NCBI RefSeq assembly: GCF_013401555.1
Contig: NZ_CP058552.1
Coordinates: 6,138,001-6,202,000, forward strand
DNA length: 64,000 nucleotides
Origin: Paenibacillus sp. E222
GTDB lineage: Bacteria > Bacillota > Bacilli > Paenibacillales > Paenibacillaceae
Direction: 5' to 3'
In this document: positions 41,520 through 53,113 of the stretch, one piece after another
How the letters are laid out: each line of letters starts with the position of its first letter
How positions within the stretch are numbered: position 1 is the stretch's first letter
The notes under the pieces: model-generated
Databases searched by the model: none
What the model was told of the DNA's origin: nothing
What the model saw: only the letters and a program-made list of their open reading frames with translations
Translations under genes and position numbers: made by a program

Positions 41520-42126
41520 CTATAAACCCCCGCCTGCTCATGATTTGAGAAATGCATACTGTAGTTATTATAGATAAAACCGCTTCCGATGTATATCTGT
41601 GCATGACGTATTGAACTGGGAAACTTGGCCTGTTTCTCTGCTTCACATGTGTCGTTGATCCTTCTTATGTAAATTCTTGGTTAGATTCTCCTCCCTGATA
41701 TCTTATTGGTGTGGCAGAAGAAAGTCCGTTTTCTGTCATTTTCACTATTTTTTCAATGTTTAAGGATGTTTTTTGACCCACCATGTTATAGAATACAGAA
41801 TGAAACTAAAAAATGGGAATTATTTTAAATAAACAGTTCTAAATACCTACATCTCACTTCCATATGTCCATAAATACGTAAAATATTAAAAAAGTTTTAA
41901 CAAAACTATTCAATTTGACGACATTTTATACGACATATTAAGTATAGATGTGTTTTAATAATTAGACACCTATAGGTATCTAGGTAAAAATATCTCTACA
42001 TAGCGACCAGGAACCCAAGACCATGGTCGCACATTTTACCTTTGGAGGGGATAAGGAAATGACTTAATTTACATCATGAAGACAGCAGCATATTATCAAT
42101 TCAAAGAAGATCAGGAGTGGACTTTA
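41520..42126. other. long leader/promoter region of the chemotaxis-NRPS unit
   Basis: About 600 bases without a gene separate rpiA from the divergent chemotaxis protein. Much of it is A/T-rich. Near the downstream end are a near-perfect 16-base palindrome (41965-41980, GACACCTATAGGTATC, one mismatched pair), a hairpin with perfect 7-base arms GCGACCA (42003-42009) / TGGTCGC (42024-42030), and a strong ribosome site GGAGGGG (42044-42050) that serves only the two-codon frame ATG-ACT-TAA (42059-42067). Confidence 0.55.
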
Positions 42127-43893
42127 GTGAAATCATTAAGTTGGAAAAGCATGTCTTTTTTCTCCAAAAATCTGTTACTCTCATTTACTAACATTATTAT
42201 TATTGGCGTGGCACTTATTGCCAGCAGCTATTACTTTCAAAAAACGATTCTCGTTGACCAGCTACATGGTCAAGTAGAACAAATCACCAAAAAATGGGCA
42301 GAGGGCATTGATTCCACCGAAGTACAGGCTGCTATTACAGAAGCCAATTATGATGGAAAAGCACAAACCAAATTGCGTGCCTATTTCGATGAAATGCAGC
42401 AATATTATCCCAACATTGCACAAGCCTACATCTTTGGTGTCGAGCTGGGTGGAGATAACAAGCGTTTAACTTCCCTTGTTGCCATGCCAACCAATCTGAA
42501 GGAAGCCTTCCAGAGTGAAAATGTAAAAATCGGCGACATGTATGAACAGCCCGTCGTTGTAGCAAATGCACTGAAAGAAATGCTGAATACGGATCGCCCG
42601 ACGTTCACCACATTTTATTCCGACGATTTCGGTACATGGACAACCATTGCTTACCCGATCAAGGATAGCAACGGCAAGATTTACTCTTACTTTGCAGTCG
42701 ATGCAGACGCATCAGCAGTACCTGCCGGACTGAACAAATTGCTCAAGAACGGAATTATCATTCTGATAGCGTTCCTGCTGTTATTCCTGATTATCCAATA
42801 TCTTGTTGTCAAAAACACGCTTTCCCCTATTCGTCACCTGATCAAAGGGATTGATGACGTAAGTCGGGGTAATTTGAATGTCAAAATTCCGACAGGCAAA
42901 GACGATCTGGGCATTGTGAACGAAAAGTTCAATACCATGGTACGCAAGATCAACGACACCATCGTCAAAGTGCAAATCACTTCGCAAGAAGTTAACGAGT
43001 CTGCCAAGGAGCTGTATGAAGTCTCCGAGAGAAACAGCGAGAATGCTGATTCTATCAATAACAACGTTACTCAGATTACATCCAACATTCGTGCACAGGA
43101 ACAGGCAACCCGGGACAGTGCCCGTGCGATGTCCGAGATGGCTATCGTCATTCAGACTATTGCCAGCAGTTCAGCTAGTGTAGCTGACGAGGCATATGAG
43201 ATGGAACGCCGTTCTCAACAAGGAAACACTGTGGTTCGTCAGGTGTCAGAGCAGATGAATCTGATTACGGAATCTGTTAAAAACACTGCTTCAGCCATTC
43301 AGGTTCTGGAGAGCCGTTCTCAGGAAATTGGCGATATTCTGAATATCATTTCAGGTATTTCCAGCCAGACCAACTTACTTGCACTCAACGCCTCCATTGA
43401 AGCGGCACGTGTTGGTGAAGAAGGCCGAGGATTCGCGGTTGTAGCAGGTGAAGTACGTAAACTTGCTGAGCAGTCGGAACAATCCACGAGCCAGGTTGCT
43501 GTACTGATCCAGGAGATTCAGGCTGAAATCAGACAAGCCGTTCGTGCGATGGAACAAGGAACGTCTGAAGTGGATACCGGGCTCAGCGTAGCTGATCAAA
43601 CCGGTCAATTGTTCGAAGAAATTTTGGAAGCTGCCAAGAAAGTATCGAATCAGATTCAGGAAGTGTCCAGCGCTACAGAAGAAATTTCTGCAGGTACAGA
43701 AGAAATGACCGCAACTGCGGATGATTTGTCTGCCAGTGTGAGTAAAACAGCTGAAAACAGTGAACGGATTTCTTCATCCGTTGATGAACAAAAAGCGTCT
43801 CTGATTACGCTTGTTGATTCCTCTACCCGTTTGAACAGCATGTCCGAGGAACTGCAAGAACTGATTTCGCATTTTAATGTAAGCAAACTATAA
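42127..43893 (+). CDS. methyl-accepting chemotaxis protein
   Basis: A membrane chemoreceptor of 588 residues. Helix 1 is at about 15-35, an extracellular sensor domain of about 170 residues (single Cache-like) follows, helix 2 is at about 207-228, then HAMP to about 280 and a long cytoplasmic signalling domain with the hairpin tip [43 protein letters not shown]. No C-terminal tether pentapeptide is present. I prefer the GTG at 42127, 9 bases after AGGAG, giving [12 protein letters not shown]; an in-frame ATG at 42076 adds 17 residues but has no ribosome site at the right distance. It is followed 46 bases later by the NRPS gene on the same strand. Confidence 0.9.
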
Positions 43894-43939
43894 TTCAACC
43901 CACATCTTGAACGGTTTGAACCAAGGAGGAACAACTGAA

Positions 43940-46900
43940 GTGGTCGAAAATCAATCATCATCTCCCCAAACAGTGGAATCTGGCCTGCCGGTTCTTCAGA
44001 TTCCACTGGATTTTGGGCGCCGTCAACAATCATTTAAATACGAGTCTGCTCATATCTCACTGGAATCGTCCCTGAGTCGGGAACTAAAACAAAAATTCGG
44101 CTCAGAAGGCATGTATCCAGCATTATTGTCTGCCTACGCAGCATTGTTGTTCCGTTTATCAGCCGAGCAGGAACTTGCCATTGGCACACTGGCTCCCGAT
44201 CAGGCAGCTTCCCATGTGTTATTGCAGATTCAAGGCAAGTTAACCTTTAACGAGCTGATTCATCAGATTTCAGATCAACTCCAGCAGCATTACACGCCCC
44301 AAACCGGAGGCAATCCGGAAACGCTGTTCATGTTTAACAGTGTACAGCTGCCTAAAGCTCCTCAAATGTTAAATTGGAATGTTCGTGATGATCAGGATAT
44401 GCTCACACTGGATCTGTTCTATGACAGTTCACTTCTTCATGAAGCTACGATCACAAGATATGCAGAGTATTATCAGACTCTTCTTCTGGCTATGCTGCGT
44501 GACAAGGACAAAGCCATCGGTACAGTGGACATTTTATCCGCTTCAGATCGACTGCTATACCGGGAAATGAATGATACCACCGTTCTCGAACCGGAGCATC
44601 AGACCATTCATGGCTGGTTCGAAGCAACAGCAGCAGAATATCCGGAATCGCCAGCAATTACTTCATCAACTGGTCGATACACCTATAGAGAACTGAACGA
44701 ACGTGCCAATCAGGTTGCCCGTGTGCTGTTATCCAATGGTTTGCAAAAAGGAGAATTCGTCAGCATCTTTATGGAGCGGAGTTTGGAAACGATTATTTCT
44801 TTGCTCGGTATTCTCAAAGCTGGCGGAGTATATGTTCCTGTTGATCCTGAGCATCCACAAGAACGCAACAGTTATATTGTCGAAGATACAGCTTCATCAT
44901 TTGTCCTGACCAAAGAATCCTCTTTACCTGAAGCTTCACGTTTATTCTCAGGAATTACTACCGTTCGCCAAATCCTGGCCGTGGATGGACGCCTTGCCGG
45001 ATTTGCAGCAAGCAACCCCAACCTGGATATTCAGCCAGACGACCTGGCGTATATCATCTATACCTCGGGATCTACCGGCAAACCGAAAGGTGCACTTATT
45101 GCCCATCGGGGTGTTGCCAATCTCGGTAGTGTGGTGCAAAGGGATTGCGATATTCAACCAGGTGACGTATTAACCCAGTTTGCTACATACAGCTTCGATG
45201 CATCAGTGTGGGATACGATTGGCGCCTTGTTCTACGGAGCAGAACTGTACCTGTTGTCGGCGGAAGAACGTGTATCCGTCGAGGAATTTGCGAGTGCAAT
45301 TGAGCGCACAGGCACAACCATTATTACGATACTGCCAACCATCTTTTTCAACCAGCTTGCTTCCTTCCTGTCTGAAGAAGGCTTCCACAAGCTGGCCAAA
45401 GTCAAAATCATTACGGTGGCTGGTGAAGCACTCTATGGTGAGCAGGTTCGTGCCTTCCAGCGCAAGTTCGGCAACCAGATTGATATCGTCAATGTATACG
45501 GACCTACGGAATGTACGGTAGCGACAGCGACCCACCGAATTAGTGAGCAAGTTCCAGAAAGTGTCGTTAACATTCCAATCGGCAGACCGATTCATAACTA
45601 TAAAGTGTATATCGTCAATGAAGAACAGCAGTTATGCCCGGTAGGCGTTCCTGGAGAGGTATATATAGCAACACCCGCTTTGGCCAAAGGTTATCTGAAC
45701 CAGCCTGAGCGTACAGCGCAGGCATTCATTGATAATCCATTTGCTATCGATGAGAAAATCTATAAATCTGGCGATATTGCCAAAATGCTCGATAATGGAT
45801 TGCTGGAGTATGTCGGACGCAGTGACTCCCAGTTAAAAATCCGGGGTCACCGGATTGAGATTGGAGAGATCGAGGATCATTTTGCGCGTCTGGATCAGGT
45901 TCAGGATGTTGCCGTGATTCCGAAGAAGGAATCGGATGGTCAAAACATGCTCGTAGGGTACTTTACATCCAAGGATGGCAGTACGCTTTCCGTTGCAGAC
46001 ATTAAAGCCGAGCTAACGGTTAAGCTTCCTTCCTATTTTGTACCGAAATGGATTTGTCAGCTGGATGAAATGCCGATCGCACCGACAGGCAAAATCAATC
46101 GTAAAGCGATGGTATCTCTGCCTCACGTAGAGCGTCATGAAGATCGACCTTATCGGGTACTGCCGGAGACGGAAACCGAAGCGATTATTCTGGAATCCTG
46201 GAAAGAAATTCTTCAACACGATGACTTTGGTGTGGAGGACAGCTTCTTCGCCATTGGTGGTGATTCTCTACGTGTCATCCATGTATTGGTCATTCTGAAG
46301 CCGCATTATCCACAGCTGAAAATTGCTGACTTTTTTGCCGAGAAAACGATTCGTGCCTTGGCACAACGTGTGGAGACGCTGGCTCAAGCTACAGAAGAAA
46401 CTTCCCACTCCTCAGTAAATGACGGCGTGATCACCCAATTGTCAGAACATCCTGTAGAGCTGAGAACCCAGATTGGATATCCGGATATTCTGAATCCCGA
46501 GCATGTGCTCCTAACTGGGGCTACCGGATATCTTGGATCCCATGTGCTGCAACAGTTGATTCTAACTTCGAATACACGCATCTATACTCTTGTTCGCCGC
46601 CCCACAGACGGAAGTTCTGCGATGGAACGACTGAGCAGCGTCATGAAAGGTTACTTTGGACCGGAACTGCTACCTCTCCTCGCATCCCGCGTCGAGATTA
46701 TCGAAGGCGATCTGGAACAACCGAATCTTGGTCTTTCAGCAGAGCAGACAACATACGTGCAAGAACGAATTGACCGTGTGATACACTGTGCCGCCGACGT
46801 ACGACATTTCGGGGATGCAGCACAATTCGCCAAAACCAATGTAGATGGTACCATTGCCTTGCTTAAGCTTGTTCGCAGCAAACCGGGTGCCTCCTTCCAC

Positions 46901-47647
46901 CATGTATCCACGATGGGAATACCGGAAGATCTTGCACTCAGTGGACAGTGGGAATCCTCATTGCAATATGATCGCTTCCCAGCGGATCTGCATGTGGACA
47001 ACCTGTACTCGGACAGTAAACTTGAAGCAGAGAAGGTGCTTATGCTTGCTGCCGAAGAGGGTGTACCTGTGAGCATCTATCGTGCAGGTAATCTGACCTG
47101 TCATTCCGAGACAGGACGTTTCCAGTCTAATATCGATAGCAACGCCTTTTATCGTATGATTAAAGCAATGTTATTGCTGGGCAAAGCTCCGGCAGCCGAC
47201 TGGATGGTTGATTTTACACCTATTGATTATGCAAGCCAGGCGATTGTACATCTGGCATTACGCCAGGACACAGCAGGACGGGTATTCCATATCTGTAATC
47301 CGGAGCCAATCAGCTACGATGATCTGATTCGTTCTGTGAATCGGGCCGGTTATGAAGTGGAAACTCTGCCTTTTGCAGAGTACACCAACTGGTTGTTCGA
47401 TGGCAGTGTCAGCAAGGACCCTGAGGCGCTTCAACTGGCTATCGCCCAGCTTGAAGGAGACGGTGCCAAGGATTCTGCATACGTGTATGCCTCACCTGTA
47501 ACAACTGCTTATGTGGAACCAGCCGGCATCACATGCGCCAAAACCGATGATCGTTTCATCTCAAAAATGCTCGAACATGCCATCGAGATTGGTTATTTCC
47601 CTAAGGCCGTCCGACCGCAGTTTGGCACTTCTCCAAAGATGGAATAA
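43940..47647 (+). CDS. one-module NRPS: remnant condensation, adenylation, thiolation, thioester reductase
   Basis: A 1235-residue enzyme. GTG at 43940 has AAGGAGG 10 bases upstream; a TTG at 43907 precedes that site and is unlikely. Domain order: a condensation-like stretch (about 15-205) matching only the second half of a C domain and lacking HHxxxDG; adenylation (about 215-740) with YTSGSTGKPKG, SFDASVW, VYGPTE, KSGD, GRSDSQLKIRGHRIE and PTGKINRK; a carrier domain with the phosphopantetheine Ser S776 in IGGDSLR; and a reductase (about 850-1230) with GATGYLGSHV and catalytic Y1023/K1027 in YSDSK. It would activate an amino acid, or related acid, and release it as an aldehyde or alcohol, as in Lys2-like and CAR enzymes. 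My hand-derived pocket code is D-A-W-T-T-A-V-V-A-K, which is tentative. A terminator follows. Confidence 0.9.
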   Translation: MVENQSSSPQTVESGLPVLQIPLDFGRRQQSFKYESAHISLESSLSRELKQKFGSEGMYPALLSAYAALLFRLSAEQELAIGTLAPDQAASHVLLQIQGKLTFNELIHQISDQLQQHYTPQTGGNPETLFMFNSVQLPKAPQMLNWNVRDDQDMLTLDLFYDSSLLHEATITRYAEYYQTLLLAMLRDKDKAIGTVDILSASDRLLYREMNDTTVLEPEHQTIHGWFEATAAEYPESPAITSSTGRYTYRELNERANQVARVLLSNGLQKGEFVSIFMERSLETIISLLGILKAGGVYVPVDPEHPQERNSYIVEDTASSFVLTKESSLPEASRLFSGITTVRQILAVDGRLAGFAASNPNLDIQPDDLAYIIYTSGSTGKPKGALIAHRGVANLGSVVQRDCDIQPGDVLTQFATYSFDASVWDTIGALFYGAELYLLSAEERVSVEEFASAIERTGTTIITILPTIFFNQLASFLSEEGFHKLAKVKIITVAGEALYGEQVRAFQRKFGNQIDIVNVYGPTECTVATATHRISEQVPESVVNIPIGRPIHNYKVYIVNEEQQLCPVGVPGEVYIATPALAKGYLNQPERTAQAFIDNPFAIDEKIYKSGDIAKMLDNGLLEYVGRSDSQLKIRGHRIEIGEIEDHFARLDQVQDVAVIPKKESDGQNMLVGYFTSKDGSTLSVADIKAELTVKLPSYFVPKWICQLDEMPIAPTGKINRKAMVSLPHVERHEDRPYRVLPETETEAIILESWKEILQHDDFGVEDSFFAIGGDSLRVIHVLVILKPHYPQLKIADFFAEKTIRALAQRVETLAQATEETSHSSVNDGVITQLSEHPVELRTQIGYPDILNPEHVLLTGATGYLGSHVLQQLILTSNTRIYTLVRRPTDGSSAMERLSSVMKGYFGPELLPLLASRVEIIEGDLEQPNLGLSAEQTTYVQERIDRVIHCAADVRHFGDAAQFAKTNVDGTIALLKLVRSKPGASFHHVSTMGIPEDLALSGQWESSLQYDRFPADLHVDNLYSDSKLEAEKVLMLAAEEGVPVSIYRAGNLTCHSETGRFQSNIDSNAFYRMIKAMLLLGKAPAADWMVDFTPIDYASQAIVHLALRQDTAGRVFHICNPEPISYDDLIRSVNRAGYEVETLPFAEYTNWLFDGSVSKDPEALQLAIAQLEGDGAKDSAYVYASPVTTAYVEPAGITCAKTDDRFISKMLEHAIEIGYFPKAVRPQFGTSPKME

Positions 47648-47695
47648 ATCCAAAACAGTAAATGCATATTGTGCATCCATTGATGCATACAAAGA

Positions 47696-47740
47696 AAGCC
47701 ACCTCAACGTCAGTGATGACGGATAAGGTGGCTTTTTTCC
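47696..47740. terminator. bidirectional intrinsic terminator after the NRPS
   Basis: AAGCCACCT (47696-47704) pairs with AGGTGGCTT (47726-47734), with an inner stem CGTCA/TGACG at 47708-47721; six T follow on the plus strand. It separates the convergent NRPS and TraX-like genes. Confidence 0.85.
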
Positions 47741-49137: not shown

Positions 49138-50583
49138 ATGGAAAAGGACAATATCTATGAACAGGTTAAAGCGCTCTTGCTGGGTGTTGCCGACATGATC
49201 TATCAGCCATTTCAGGTCGGACCTTATCGCTGTGAACTCATTTATATTCAGTCCATAGTGGACACCCCTACTATGCGGGAAGCCATTATTAAGCCTTTGC
49301 TTGAGGAAGCCTCCCGAAATGAAATAGATCATCAATTCATTACTCGTATCGTGACCGGTTCCTTTTTCACCCTTAACAGCCACCACTCGAATTCAGCAGA
49401 ATCCATAGTGGATGATATTGTGTCAGGTAATGCAGCCTTATATATCGAGGGTATTTCGGGCATGATCCATTTCGCTCTCCAAAATTATCAAAGGCGTTCC
49501 GTAGCGGAATCAACCAACGAAGTTGTAATTGTTGGTCCTCAGGAAGCCTTCATCGAAGATGTTCATGTAAATATGTCACTGCTTCGGCACAAGATTAAGC
49601 ATCCCGATTTCAAAATGATCAAGTTCACCGTTGGAAAATATACCAAAACCGAGGTATTCGTTGTCTATATCCAAGGGTTATGCAAGCCAGACATTTTGGA
49701 AAATGTATTGGAAAGCCTTGGTAATATTGATATGGACAGCAGTTTGGGCGTAAGTTATCTGTCTGAATTTCTGGAGGACCATCCCCTCTCTCCTTTTCCG
49801 CAATATCAATATACCGAACGTCCCGATACGGTTGCTGCTGCACTGGTTGAAGGGCGGATCGGGGTCATGCAGGACGGAACACCGTTTTCCCTGCTCATTC
49901 CCGTAACCTTTTTCTCATTAATGCAGTCTTCGGAAGACTATTATCAACGATTTTATTCTGCCTCCTTTATCAGAATTATTCGTCTGCTGTTTGCCTTTAT
50001 AGCCTTCCTGCTGCCATCCTTTTATGTGGCTGTTACCACATTTCACCCGGAAATCATTCCGACCAACCTGCTGATTACGATCGCTTCTGCTAGGGAGAAC
50101 ATTCCCTTTCCCGCCCTCATTGAAGCGCTCATTATGGAAGTGACCTTTGAAGGTTTGCGTGAAGCGGGGATTCGTATTCCGAAGCCGCTGGGGCAAACGG
50201 TTTCCATTATTGGCGGGATTGTTATTGGTCAGGCGGCCGTACAGGCAGGAATTGTCTCCGCACCACTCGTTATTGTCGTATCCATCACAGGTATTGCCGC
50301 CTTTATCATCCCGCACTTCGAACTCGGACTGGCTTTCCGGCTGCTTCGTTTTCCGGTGCTATTTATGGGTGGAACGCTGGGTCTGTTCGGCATCGTAATT
50401 TCGATCTATCTGATCTATTGGTATATGGTTAATCTGCGTTCATTTGGCGTGCCATACATGCAGCCCTTTGCCCCCCTTGTGCTGCGTGATATCAAGGATA
50501 CGATCGTTCGTGTGCCCTGGTTTCTGATGAAGAAGCGACCAGCAGCTTACGAAGATGCGAATAAGAAAAGGCAAAAAACATGA
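49138..50583 (+). CDS. spore germinant receptor subunit A (GerAA/GerKA family)
   Basis: A 481-residue subunit of a spore inner-membrane germinant receptor. The N-terminal soluble part (about 1-270) carries family stretches such as IYIQSIVDT, and DVHVNMSLLRHKIKHPDFKM, and ends with GTPFSLLIPVTFFSLMQSSEDYYQRF. The C-terminal part (about 275-440) has about five membrane helices, with ITIASARENIPFPALIEALIMEVTFEGLREAG. The length is that of family members (about 480-500). It is the first gene of an A-C-D-B operon, with AGGGAGG upstream, and overlaps the next gene in ATGA. Confidence 0.95.
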   Translation: MEKDNIYEQVKALLLGVADMIYQPFQVGPYRCELIYIQSIVDTPTMREAIIKPLLEEASRNEIDHQFITRIVTGSFFTLNSHHSNSAESIVDDIVSGNAALYIEGISGMIHFALQNYQRRSVAESTNEVVIVGPQEAFIEDVHVNMSLLRHKIKHPDFKMIKFTVGKYTKTEVFVVYIQGLCKPDILENVLESLGNIDMDSSLGVSYLSEFLEDHPLSPFPQYQYTERPDTVAAALVEGRIGVMQDGTPFSLLIPVTFFSLMQSSEDYYQRFYSASFIRIIRLLFAFIAFLLPSFYVAVTTFHPEIIPTNLLITIASARENIPFPALIEALIMEVTFEGLREAGIRIPKPLGQTVSIIGGIVIGQAAVQAGIVSAPLVIVVSITGIAAFIIPHFELGLAFRLLRFPVLFMGGTLGLFGIVISIYLIYWYMVNLRSFGVPYMQPFAPLVLRDIKDTIVRVPWFLMKKRPAAYEDANKKRQKT

Positions 50584-51731
50584 AAACATTGATGATTACG
50601 TGCAAACTGAGTGTTGTTTTGATGTGCATTTTACTGTGCAGCGGCTGCTGGTCCAAAGTAGAGATAAATGAACGTACCTTTATTACGACCATGTATGTAG
50701 ATAAAGGAGAAAAGCCGGGTGAAATTGATATTTCACTAAGTATGCCTCTGCCGAACCGCATCTCTCCGGAAGGAACGGGAGGACCCGGGAAAAATCCATA
50801 TGCTCTCGTTTCGGCTACCGCATCCACCATCGCTGATGCTATGGAGAAAATCCAAACGGACCTCACACGAAAAATGTCCTGGGGGCATACACGGGTCGTG
50901 GTATTCGGTGAAGCATACGCCAGAGAGGGAATTCAAGATACGATGGAATGGATCTCACGTGAACCTTTGTTCCATCTTAGCAGTTACATCATGGTTGCGA
51001 AGGGCCGAGCCAGAGATGTAGCTGATCTGACTCCCGTTTTCGAAGAAACACCCAGTGATGTGTTAAGAGAATTTGCAACAGAAGAAAACATGCTAAAAAC
51101 GCAAATGCTCAGTGTACTTATGGCTGACAAAATGAATCAGGGCTTTGCCGCCCCCTTGCTGGAATCAAGAGGAACCACGATGGCAAGTGAGGATAATAAA
51201 CGTAAGCAATGGACCAGTCAGGTAGGTGGTGCTCTTTTCAAACAGATGAAGATGGTTGATTCGATCCCTCCCGATGAAGCAAGGAGCATTGCCTGGGCCA
51301 ATCGCAAATTGGATACTTTGGCTGTCTCCGTGGAAACCGAGGATGAAAAAGCAAGTATGACGGTCTATAATACGAGTTCCAAAATCAAGGTTAGACTTGT
51401 AAATGGACAGCCTTTCTTTGATATTACTTTACGGGGGCAAGCAGAACTGAATTCCGTAATTCCGATTCTCAAGGTAAAAGATATTGTGGGTGTCAAACAG
51501 ATCGAGCAAAAGGCCAATGAAAAGGTGAGTTCCTATCTAACAAACGCAATTAGAACAGGCCTACGCAAGAAAGCCGATATTCTGATGCTTGGGTATCGCC
51601 TGGAATGGGCATATCCTCGGATCTGGGAACAGTTGCGTCCCGTTTGGAATGATTATGTCAAAAACGAATTGCAGTTTAAGGTGCGTGCCCAGATTAACAT
51701 CCAGTTTGTAGGTTCGGAATCCAGCTACTGA
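50580..51731 (+). CDS. germinant receptor subunit C, lipoprotein (GerAC family)
   Basis: A 383-residue spore lipoprotein. The signal ends in the lipobox LCSGC with the lipidated Cys at residue 23, followed by WSKVEINERTFITTMYVDKG, the usual GerAC start. The three-domain GerAC fold follows, with GHTRVVVFGEAYAREGI and a C-terminal region holding RTGLRKKADILMLGY. It overlaps the A gene by 4 bases. Subunit C anchors to the outer face of the spore inner membrane and is needed for receptor function. Confidence 0.95.
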   Translation: MKTLMITCKLSVVLMCILLCSGCWSKVEINERTFITTMYVDKGEKPGEIDISLSMPLPNRISPEGTGGPGKNPYALVSATASTIADAMEKIQTDLTRKMSWGHTRVVVFGEAYAREGIQDTMEWISREPLFHLSSYIMVAKGRARDVADLTPVFEETPSDVLREFATEENMLKTQMLSVLMADKMNQGFAAPLLESRGTTMASEDNKRKQWTSQVGGALFKQMKMVDSIPPDEARSIAWANRKLDTLAVSVETEDEKASMTVYNTSSKIKVRLVNGQPFFDITLRGQAELNSVIPILKVKDIVGVKQIEQKANEKVSSYLTNAIRTGLRKKADILMLGYRLEWAYPRIWEQLRPVWNDYVKNELQFKVRAQINIQFVGSESSY

Positions 51732-51773
51732 TAGGGACAGAGGAAGCGTCAGGCCACTTTAGGAGGTAAACCA

Positions 51774-51980
51774 ATGATCGCTGTTGTTTTGTTTGCCATA
51801 CTGTACATATTGGAGTGGCCCATGATCAAATCCAGCAAAAAGGGAATGAAAAGGGCCTATTTCATTCTGCTGGGCTTATTTCTTCTGTGGAATACGTTGG
51901 CTGTCTCTGTAGCGGGCTGGCCTAATCCCAATGATGTCATCAGGCTGCTCTTTGGCTGGGCAGACCGCTTGTTTGGCTAA
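51774..51980 (+). CDS. small two-helix protein, probable germinant receptor D subunit
   Basis: A 68-residue membrane protein with two helices (about 1-17 and 26-46) joined by a basic loop KSSKKGMKR. AGGAGG stands 6 bases before the ATG. Small two-helix proteins encoded inside ger operons are known as D subunits that modulate receptor activity in Bacillus; size, topology and place in the operon all fit. It lies 42 bases after the C gene and 14 bases before the B gene. The assignment rests on context more than on sequence identity. Confidence 0.75.
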   Translation: MIAVVLFAILYILEWPMIKSSKKGMKRAYFILLGLFLLWNTLAVSVAGWPNPNDVIRLLFGWADRLFG

Positions 51981-51994
51981 GAAAGGAGTGCGCC

Positions 51995-53113
51995 ATGAGC
52001 AAATTATCTTCCGGACAAGCGTACCGTTTTATGTTTGTCTACCTGTATTCCGAACCCATTGCTTTCCTTTTGCAGCGTTTGTTCAAAATGAGCGGTTATC
52101 AAGGGTGGATATCCATCCTTGGCGGGTTTGCGATCAGTCTGATCCTTCTCTTTTTCACATACAGATTAGGAGCGGTTCACCCGGATCGGCCCTGGATTGA
52201 TTTTGGTGAAGAAATTGTGGGCAAGGCCGTTCACAAGCTGTTCCTTGGTCTTATTGTGTTACTGTGCCTGTATTTGATATCCGTTGACGTAGAGAATTTC
52301 ATCGTTTTTCTTCAATCCATGTACTTACCCGAGACACCTATATGGCTGACAGCAACCATAACCATTTTAAGCATCAGTCTTTCAGCTCGTTCAGGCTTGA
52401 TTACCATTGTTTATTTATCAGAAGGCATATTTCTGGTGCAAATCTTCACGTCTACTTTTCTCATGCCAGCTGTATTGGGTGGGGGGAATCCTGATGTACT
52501 TCTTGCCATGGTAACGCATCATGATCTGAAAGAAATTTTCACAGGCTCGATTTCCACCATGCCCTGGTTTTCCGAATGGATGATGTTCCTGTTCCTCGCT
52601 CCTGCCATTGCTTTCCGGCGGCCGATGCTACGAAGTATGTTATTTGCAGGCTCTACGCTTGCATTATTCATTATCGTGTTCTGGATGTTTACCTTAATGA
52701 ATTTTGGACCTTACGAAGCCAGCAGTCTTCGCTACCCTTTGCTGGAGATGATACGTTTTGCTCGTTACGGCGATTTTTTGGATAACCTGGACCCTTTCCT
52801 GATTGCCATCTGGTCTACGACCATGTTTACTCGCAGCTCGTTTCTGTTATATGTAGCCTCGGTTTGTCTGGCCAAACTTACCGGAGTCCGGCAGGAAAAA
52901 ACGGTGGTTTACTTGCTTGCAGGGACTGCGGCCTCTTATGTGCTTCAATATGCAAAAGATGCGGCTTCCTATGAATTAGCCATTCGTTCATTTGCCATTG
53001 CTACGTATGCCGTGCTTATTGAGTGTATGCCTATACTGTACGTTGTTGTTTACTGGCTGCGTTTCGGGAAAAACAAAAAAGCGAGCGAGGCTTCTGCCGC
53101 CTCGTCGCCTTGA
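51995..53113 (+). CDS. germinant receptor subunit B (GerAB family)
   Basis: A 372-residue integral membrane protein of the APC superfamily with about ten helices, the usual size for GerAB (365-370). The first helix starts at ISSGQAY-like SKLSSGQAYRFMFVYLYSEP. Subunit B carries the germinant-binding pocket; which amino acid or sugar it senses cannot be read here. It is the last gene of the operon. The end is basic then Ala/Ser-rich, and its last codons contain the hairpin that serves as terminator for the opposite gene. Confidence 0.94.
   Translation: MSKLSSGQAYRFMFVYLYSEPIAFLLQRLFKMSGYQGWISILGGFAISLILLFFTYRLGAVHPDRPWIDFGEEIVGKAVHKLFLGLIVLLCLYLISVDVENFIVFLQSMYLPETPIWLTATITILSISLSARSGLITIVYLSEGIFLVQIFTSTFLMPAVLGGGNPDVLLAMVTHHDLKEIFTGSISTMPWFSEWMMFLFLAPAIAFRRPMLRSMLFAGSTLALFIIVFWMFTLMNFGPYEASSLRYPLLEMIRFARYGDFLDNLDPFLIAIWSTTMFTRSSFLLYVASVCLAKLTGVRQEKTVVYLLAGTAASYVLQYAKDAASYELAIRSFAIATYAVLIECMPILYVVVYWLRFGKNKKASEASAASSP
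53071..53107 (-). terminator. terminator of the mutarotase gene inside the gerB coding end
   Basis: GCGAGCGAGGC (53081-53091) pairs with GCCTCGTCGC (53098-53107) with a small bulge; on the minus strand TTTTTTGTTTTT follows. It ends transcription of the FucU-type gene and lies entirely within the last codons of the GerAB-family gene. Confidence 0.75.

Follow-up and report, generated by a model that had tools for sequence, protein, structure and literature searches.

A co-inherited gene pair of a chemoreceptor and a one-module NRPS-like reductase in Paenibacillus, and its possible part in sensing a self-made cue

A 64,000-nucleotide stretch of the Paenibacillus sp. E222 genome (contig NZ_CP058552.1, positions 6,138,001 to 6,202,000, forward strand; hereafter the window) holds a gene for a methyl-accepting chemotaxis protein (MCP), followed on the same strand by a gene for an enzyme that resembles a single module of a nonribosomal peptide synthetase (NRPS) and ends in a reductase domain. 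This locus raises the question of why a chemoreceptor should be coupled to such an enzyme, and whether the receptor senses what the enzyme makes, as an earlier note on this DNA had suggested as one reading. Here, we describe a comparative and structural analysis of the two genes, their products and their upstream regions. Judged by genome comparison, the receptor and enzyme genes are one co-inherited unit. We give not quite an even chance to the reading that they form one operon through which the cell would make and sense a small cue of its own, with ligand, substrate and product all predicted.

Adjacency and co-inheritance of the two genes

A match to the enzyme was present in 74 of the 75 genomes of the window's genus (E <= 1e-100) and in 138 of the 394 genomes of its family, spread over 11 of 19 genera (E <= 1e-230). 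Samples of the order and of the phylum yielded matches in 130 of 392 genomes (18 of 49 genera) and in 6 of 398 (E <= 1e-200), respectively; five of these last six lie in the window's family, and the sixth is genome G871, in whose own family 6 of 151 genomes had a match (E <= 1e-150). When all genomes other than the window's with a match in the family search or the order sample were combined, 157 of these 161 other Paenibacillales genomes, representing 19 of 20 genera, proved to have a relative of the receptor directly upstream in the same orientation. The spacing between the aligned ends of receptor and enzyme ranged from 21 to 340 bases, with a median of 126. All 28 of 28 further named contig loci, which partly overlap the 161 genomes, also pair the two genes. 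The neighbourhoods of relatives, by which the earlier note had proposed to check the pairing, show adjacency to be widespread where it might never have occurred.

The four genomes without an upstream receptor are G136 and three of family f9 (genus g27); in two of the latter loci (L182 and L184 of L182-L184) a predicted 380-aa protein, membrane-like by appearance, lies upstream of the enzyme gene. Among the six enzymes of the G871 family, four have a receptor upstream on the same strand, and for a 29% relative in that family (G932) no receptor was found in the 1.5 kb examined. At the remaining locus of that family (L212, genome G1059) the receptor adjoins the enzyme gene and the two are transcribed divergently. 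The annotation of P. cellulositrophicus lists a phosphopantetheinyl transferase (PPTase), a methyl-accepting chemotaxis protein and a non-ribosomal peptide synthetase consecutively, which seems not to be an independent case.

Chance adjacency was rejected, given 27 MCP genes in a 7.5-Mb genome against the same neighbour in 157 of 161 genomes. Synteny alone was rejected as well, because the flanking genes vary by clade while the pair stays constant, and because splits that cross genera are common to the trees of both genes. In the 22 largest families of neighbouring genes, drawn from the two frames closest to the pair on either side, no third gene such as an exporter or an oxidase was conserved from clade to clade.

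The two genes also come and go together. Both are present in 136 of the 394 family genomes and neither in 254, with two genomes having the enzyme only and two the receptor only. These counts depend on a sensor-domain cut-off of E < 1e-38 (138 family genomes) that was set post hoc from the matches themselves. In 20 enzyme-less genomes the sensor search gave weaker matches (E 1e-10 to 1e-33), which may be paralogues and were scored absent. The enzyme-only genomes are G136 and G142, in the second of which a broken MCP gene adjoins the enzyme, and the receptor-only genomes are G139, where a contig end cuts the enzyme beside the MCP gene, and G146. The sole member of the genus without the enzyme (G009) is also without the receptor. 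Trees of receptor and enzyme (FastTree, 118 rows) have 82 of 115 splits in common, some of which unite different genera; one such split places seven genomes of the window's genus inside a g3/g8 group. The corresponding distance matrices correlate at 0.88-0.94, a value to which shared species history contributes.

Genome G136, in which a sensor search found no receptor anywhere, provides a further observation. Motifs and specificity codes were compared among 158 distinct enzymes of at least 900 aa, four shorter frames being excluded, and the G136 enzyme (L164:3995-7959), in a frame otherwise open, is the only one of them without the first residue of the code, an aspartate, and also the only one without the tyrosine of the reductase YxxxK motif. 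From this single case, loss of the receptor seems to be accompanied by decay of the enzyme. Taken together, adjacency, joint presence and absence, common tree splits, the riboswitch leader described below and the decay in G136 strongly support the coupling of the two genes that had been proposed for the window.

The two proteins and the predicted product

The first protein is classed, on HAMP and MCP signalling domains that score above their cut-offs, as a transmembrane chemoreceptor. Its gene is best read from the GTG at 42127, as the earlier note had chosen, rather than from the ATG at 42076, because a Shine-Dalgarno-like CAGGAG sits before the GTG and because the longer N-terminus holds an in-frame stop in 28 of 47 relatives of at least 79% identity. 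The sensor domain matched no Pfam family above cut-off (weak matches only) and no PDB entry by sequence. An AlphaFold2 model of this domain (predicted local distance difference test score, pLDDT, 80.2; predicted template modelling score, pTM, 0.68), based on an alignment of 22 rows of which one is 55% identical and the others at least 82%, has the layout of a single Cache domain between two transmembrane (TM) helices. Foldseek searches with the model returned the sensor domains of KinD (E 5e-7), DcuS (E 1.7e-4), WalK and CitA, at TM-scores of about 0.4-0.7. By this model, the outside domain of the receptor is a single-Cache fold. The TM-Cache-TM-HAMP-signalling order is that of known single-Cache transmembrane chemoreceptors, from which the window's receptor differs in its unmatched sensor sequence and in sharing a unit with an NRPS-like gene. 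The window's genome also encodes a paralogous receptor (L207:6260-8026, near C1:186256) whose sensor domain is 47% identical and which has no enzyme gene within the 14 kb examined; a second sensor match like this paralogue is present in many genomes of the genus.

The second protein had been described as an adenylation-thiolation-reductase (A-T-R) enzyme, to which we add a half condensation (C) domain at the N-terminus. Residues 1 to about 205 match solely the end of the condensation profile and were modelled as one condensation lobe (pLDDT 69.7), and the HHxxxD motif is missing in 155 of the 158 enzymes, the window's included; the three remaining enzymes (L088, L089 and L136) fit the pattern inside the half domain. 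With its single C lobe, the enzyme is predicted to be without a working condensation domain. Relatives that lack the half domain altogether (A-T-R, about 1020 aa; L185, L187, L188, L193-L196 and others) retain the pairing with a receptor. All 158 enzymes have the serine of the carrier domain and the ST motif of the reductase, and 157 have YxxxK. A second enzyme of this kind was not found in the window's genome with this query, the six further matches being single domains of 23-34% identity. Two PPTase-family genes occur in the window's genome. At seven loci of relatives a PPTase gene (checked by Pfam for one) flanks the pair, and at four of these loci it overlaps the 3' end of the enzyme gene.

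Named relatives of the enzyme were considered and set aside on their equivalog cut-offs: carboxylic acid reductase (NF041592; 164.5 bits against 1300), the L-aminoadipate-semialdehyde dehydrogenase Lys2 (TIGR03443; 398.7 against 1030.1), the aureusimine synthetase AusA (NF047350; 577.2 against 2500) and the myxochelin synthetase MxcG (NF038078; 534 against 2300). AusA and MxcG, both of which release their products reductively, are the best NCBIfam matches; in contrast to them, the window's enzyme is one module and has no whole C domain.

The ten-letter specificity code DAWTTAVVAK occurs in 65 of the 158 enzymes, including that of the window, and 32 codes occur in all; other branches carry DAY..G..VK types and DALGTGAVVK. 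We take DAWTTAVVAK to be close to codes for phenylalanine and DALGTGAVVK to be close to a tyrosine code, on reference codes and a numbering that we assume. Because the A-domain code is Phe-like, the likely product is an aromatic aminoaldehyde, perhaps a pyrazine. One of the closest counterparts is the minimal NRPS ATRed of Xenorhabdus indica (xind01729; PMC7586950), which likewise has single A and T domains and a terminal R domain; according to the portion of that report drawn on here, its proposed substrate is an aromatic amino acid, release is as the aldehyde, and it yields a Phe-derived pyrazine. The window's enzyme, whose substrate and product are predicted, differs from ATRed in its half condensation domain and in its chemoreceptor partner, no receptor being mentioned in that portion of the report (PMC7586950).

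Control of expression, and what the receptor may sense

The earlier note had read the locus as an MCP gene, a gap of 46 bases with a strong ribosome site, and the enzyme gene on one strand, with no terminator between the genes and a strong one after them. Our analysis bears out this arrangement. The frames end at 43893 and 47647, AAGGAGG lies within the 46 bases that separate the receptor stop from the enzyme GTG, the region 43884-43945 folds like shuffled sequence (z 0.04) with no stable hairpin found between the genes, and the hairpin beyond the enzyme gene stands well clear of shuffles (Table 1). Promoter-like matches in the region number 16 where 16.1 are expected by chance, and one of them coincides with the 3' end of the MCP gene, given which the enzyme may have a separate promoter. 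For the window, we infer co-transcription of receptor and enzyme.

Among relatives, eight of 11 loci scanned in a deep second branch have a c-di-GMP-I riboswitch (RF01051, GEMM-I; c-di-GMP, cyclic diguanosine monophosphate) above the Rfam gathering score before the receptor, as has one of ten loci scanned in the other branch. These nine loci were used to build a model, which they match by construction; it found 36 of 100 loci and four of 47 further sources. Of the 38 riboswitch positions checked, 37 are upstream of the receptor on the same strand, 77-309 bases from its first aligned codon except in G142, where the distance is 1338 and the receptor is broken; the 38th, in G136, directly precedes the altered enzyme gene. 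The riboswitch is upstream of the receptor in loci L199 and L201 as well. By tree rows, 32 of 47 in the second branch have the riboswitch and 15 have none. When eight riboswitch leaders were folded, terminator-like hairpins appeared after several of the aptamers. GEMM-I riboswitches often lie upstream of motility and receptor genes, and the relatives' receptors have the full aptamer; unlike the usual GEMM-I leader, theirs would serve an NRPS-like gene too.

Neither an Rfam scan nor the model from relatives found a c-di-GMP-I riboswitch before the window's operon, the Rfam scan of its leader giving two matches far below gathering scores, both to eukaryotic families. The window's leader instead has a site resembling TAAA-N15-GCCGATAT, which we take to be the consensus of a sigma-D promoter. 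Among 142 upstream regions, 61 contain this pattern, compared with 4.0 (standard deviation 1.9, maximum 9) in 100 shuffles; the pattern was itself derived from some of these regions, and the rows are related. Elsewhere in the genome, six of 21 further MCP genes, with starts set by rule, carry it, against about two expected from background. These counts are suggestive of sigma-D control of the window's operon.

These results can be joined into the following mechanism. The enzyme would activate an aromatic amino acid, by its code Phe in the window's lineage and Phe- or Tyr-like in several others; the carrier domain would hold this amino acid and the reductase would release it as an aminoaldehyde, two of which might condense and oxidise to a pyrazine. 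With only half a condensation domain, peptide bond formation is not expected. The Cache-type receptor would bind the product or a derivative outside the membrane and feed the chemotaxis pathway, such that cells would orient their movement by what they or their kin produce. Expression would be tied to the decision between motile and sessile life, for which the deep branch would use its c-di-GMP-I riboswitch and the window's branch, probably, a sigma-D-type promoter. It is plausible that the enzyme product is what the receptor senses. The fuller proposal, which we put forward with considerable doubt, is of a synthase-receptor pair dedicated to autochemotaxis: its signal would be a pyrazine or an aromatic aminoaldehyde, its control would lie with c-di-GMP or the flagellar system, and it would be a core trait of one Paenibacillus group.

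Several observations weigh against a self-made cue. About 60% of the family genomes are without either gene, and G146 retains the receptor without the enzyme. The three f9 enzymes, with no receptor in the 5 kb upstream, keep the code aspartate and the reductase tyrosine, and no exporter was found in the 22 largest neighbour families. The 32 codes differ while the receptor persists. Once shared ancestry is allowed for, the partial correlation with the A-domain code is 0.24 for the sensor domain and 0.36 for the signalling domain, and the covariation is therefore not specific to the sensor. Finally, the volatile 2,5-bis(1-methylethyl)-pyrazine, which a Paenibacillus strain emits according to the parts of the report used here (PMC5481530), would imply valine by its structure, unlike the aromatic code.

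The chief alternative is a receptor for the substrate of the enzyme or for another outside cue, an amino acid or an organic acid, in which case the operon simply co-expresses the synthesis of an effector during swarming or settling, the ligand not being the product. The titles of structures matched by the sensor model name pyruvate (KinD), formate and leucine/isoleucine/valine (Tlp3) as ligands, and the shift of codes between branches under a constant receptor, the covariation that is not sensor-specific and the lone receptor of G146 are all as this alternative would have them. We nevertheless regard it as somewhat unlikely, because a receptor of this kind need not follow the presence and absence of the enzyme so closely, and decay of the enzyme upon receptor loss, as in G136, would not be required. 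An improbable further reading holds that the aminoaldehyde or a derivative is toxic or antimicrobial and that the receptor drives its producer away from it. In its favour, aldehydes are reactive; against it, efflux or resistance genes were not found in the 22 largest neighbour families. In the same parts of the report on the volatile pyrazine, that compound inhibited Burkholderia and its effect on the Paenibacillus was not significant (PMC5481530), which would favour this reading.

Two further explanations were weighed. It is very improbable that the product has an intracellular target, either the receptor array or c-di-GMP signalling, while the outside domain senses something different; the riboswitch that heads the operon in one branch would fit such a role, but no precedent for it is known to us, and no suitable third gene is conserved across clades. 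Scarcely credible is the proposal that the genes are neighbours by descent, functionally unlinked and each with its own promoter. The promoter-like match over the end of the receptor gene, one of a number no greater than chance, would serve this proposal, but the pair is kept across contexts, is absent jointly and has concordant trees across genera, and both the 46-base gap without a stable hairpin and the decay of the G136 enzyme speak against it.

Known pairs of signal and sensor genes mostly control genes. If a self-made cue is indeed what this operon serves, its constant coupling of synthase and chemoreceptor would link such a signal pair to movement. The pair, which occurs in 74 of 75 genomes of the window's genus, also gives two orphans a tentative assignment, the receptor a candidate ligand and the NRPS-like enzyme a candidate role. 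Its parts are of known kinds; as far as literature searches reach, what is new is the fixed chemoreceptor-reductase pair and, in one branch, its c-di-GMP-I leaders. A description of such a pair was not found among the titles and abstracts listed by searches of the open PMC literature, subscription papers and preprints lying outside that search, and the parts used here of a proteomic study of P. polymyxa swarming make no mention of this gene (PMC6878767).

Features of the window

The features of the locus are collected in Table 1. Between the tentative promoter and the receptor gene lie two conserved stretches, one a quasi-palindrome and the other hairpin-capable, neither of which belongs to an Rfam family.

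Table 1. Coordinates, within the window, of the receptor-enzyme locus and its flanking signals.
Feature	Position	Strand	Description
Sigma-D-like site TTCA-N16-TACGACAT, tentative promoter	41909-41936	+	Kept in the window's branch; resembles a sigma-D promoter
Nearly invariant element GATGTGTTTTAATAATTAGACACC	41947-41970	+	In close relatives
Conserved leader stretch, possible hairpin GCGACCA...TGGTCGC	42003-42030	+	z only -1.6; no Rfam family
Chemoreceptor (MCP) gene	42127-43893	+	GTG start, 588 aa; TM1, single-Cache-like extracytoplasmic domain, TM2, HAMP, MCP signalling domain
Receptor sensor domain, residues 39-207	42241-42747	+	AlphaFold2 model, Cache-type/extracytoplasmic PAS
Receptor HAMP domain	42805-42954	+	Pfam, 37.6 bits, cut-off 25
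Receptor MCPsignal domain	43186-43716	+	Pfam, 153.4 bits, cut-off 34.6
Ribosome site AAGGAGG of enzyme gene	43923-43929	+	In 28 of 28 aligned sequences
NRPS-like reductase gene	43940-47647	+	GTG start, 1235 aa; half C-A-T-R
Half condensation domain	44027-44569	+	One lobe, without HHxxxD; profile match and model
Adenylation domain	44618-46099	+	Code DAWTTAVVAK; Pfam AMP-binding
Thiolation (carrier) domain	46187-46372	+	GGDS serine; Pfam PP-binding
Thioester reductase domain	46502-47596	+	Motifs TGATGYLG, ST, YxxxK; TIGR01746, 228.8 bits, cut-off 213.35; Pfam NAD_binding_4
Intrinsic terminator 3' of enzyme gene	47692-47738	+	-25.6 kcal/mol, z -6.0 against shuffles

Further downstream, at 49138-53113 of the window, are GerA-type spore germination genes, of which GerA is assigned by Pfam and the next two by appearance.

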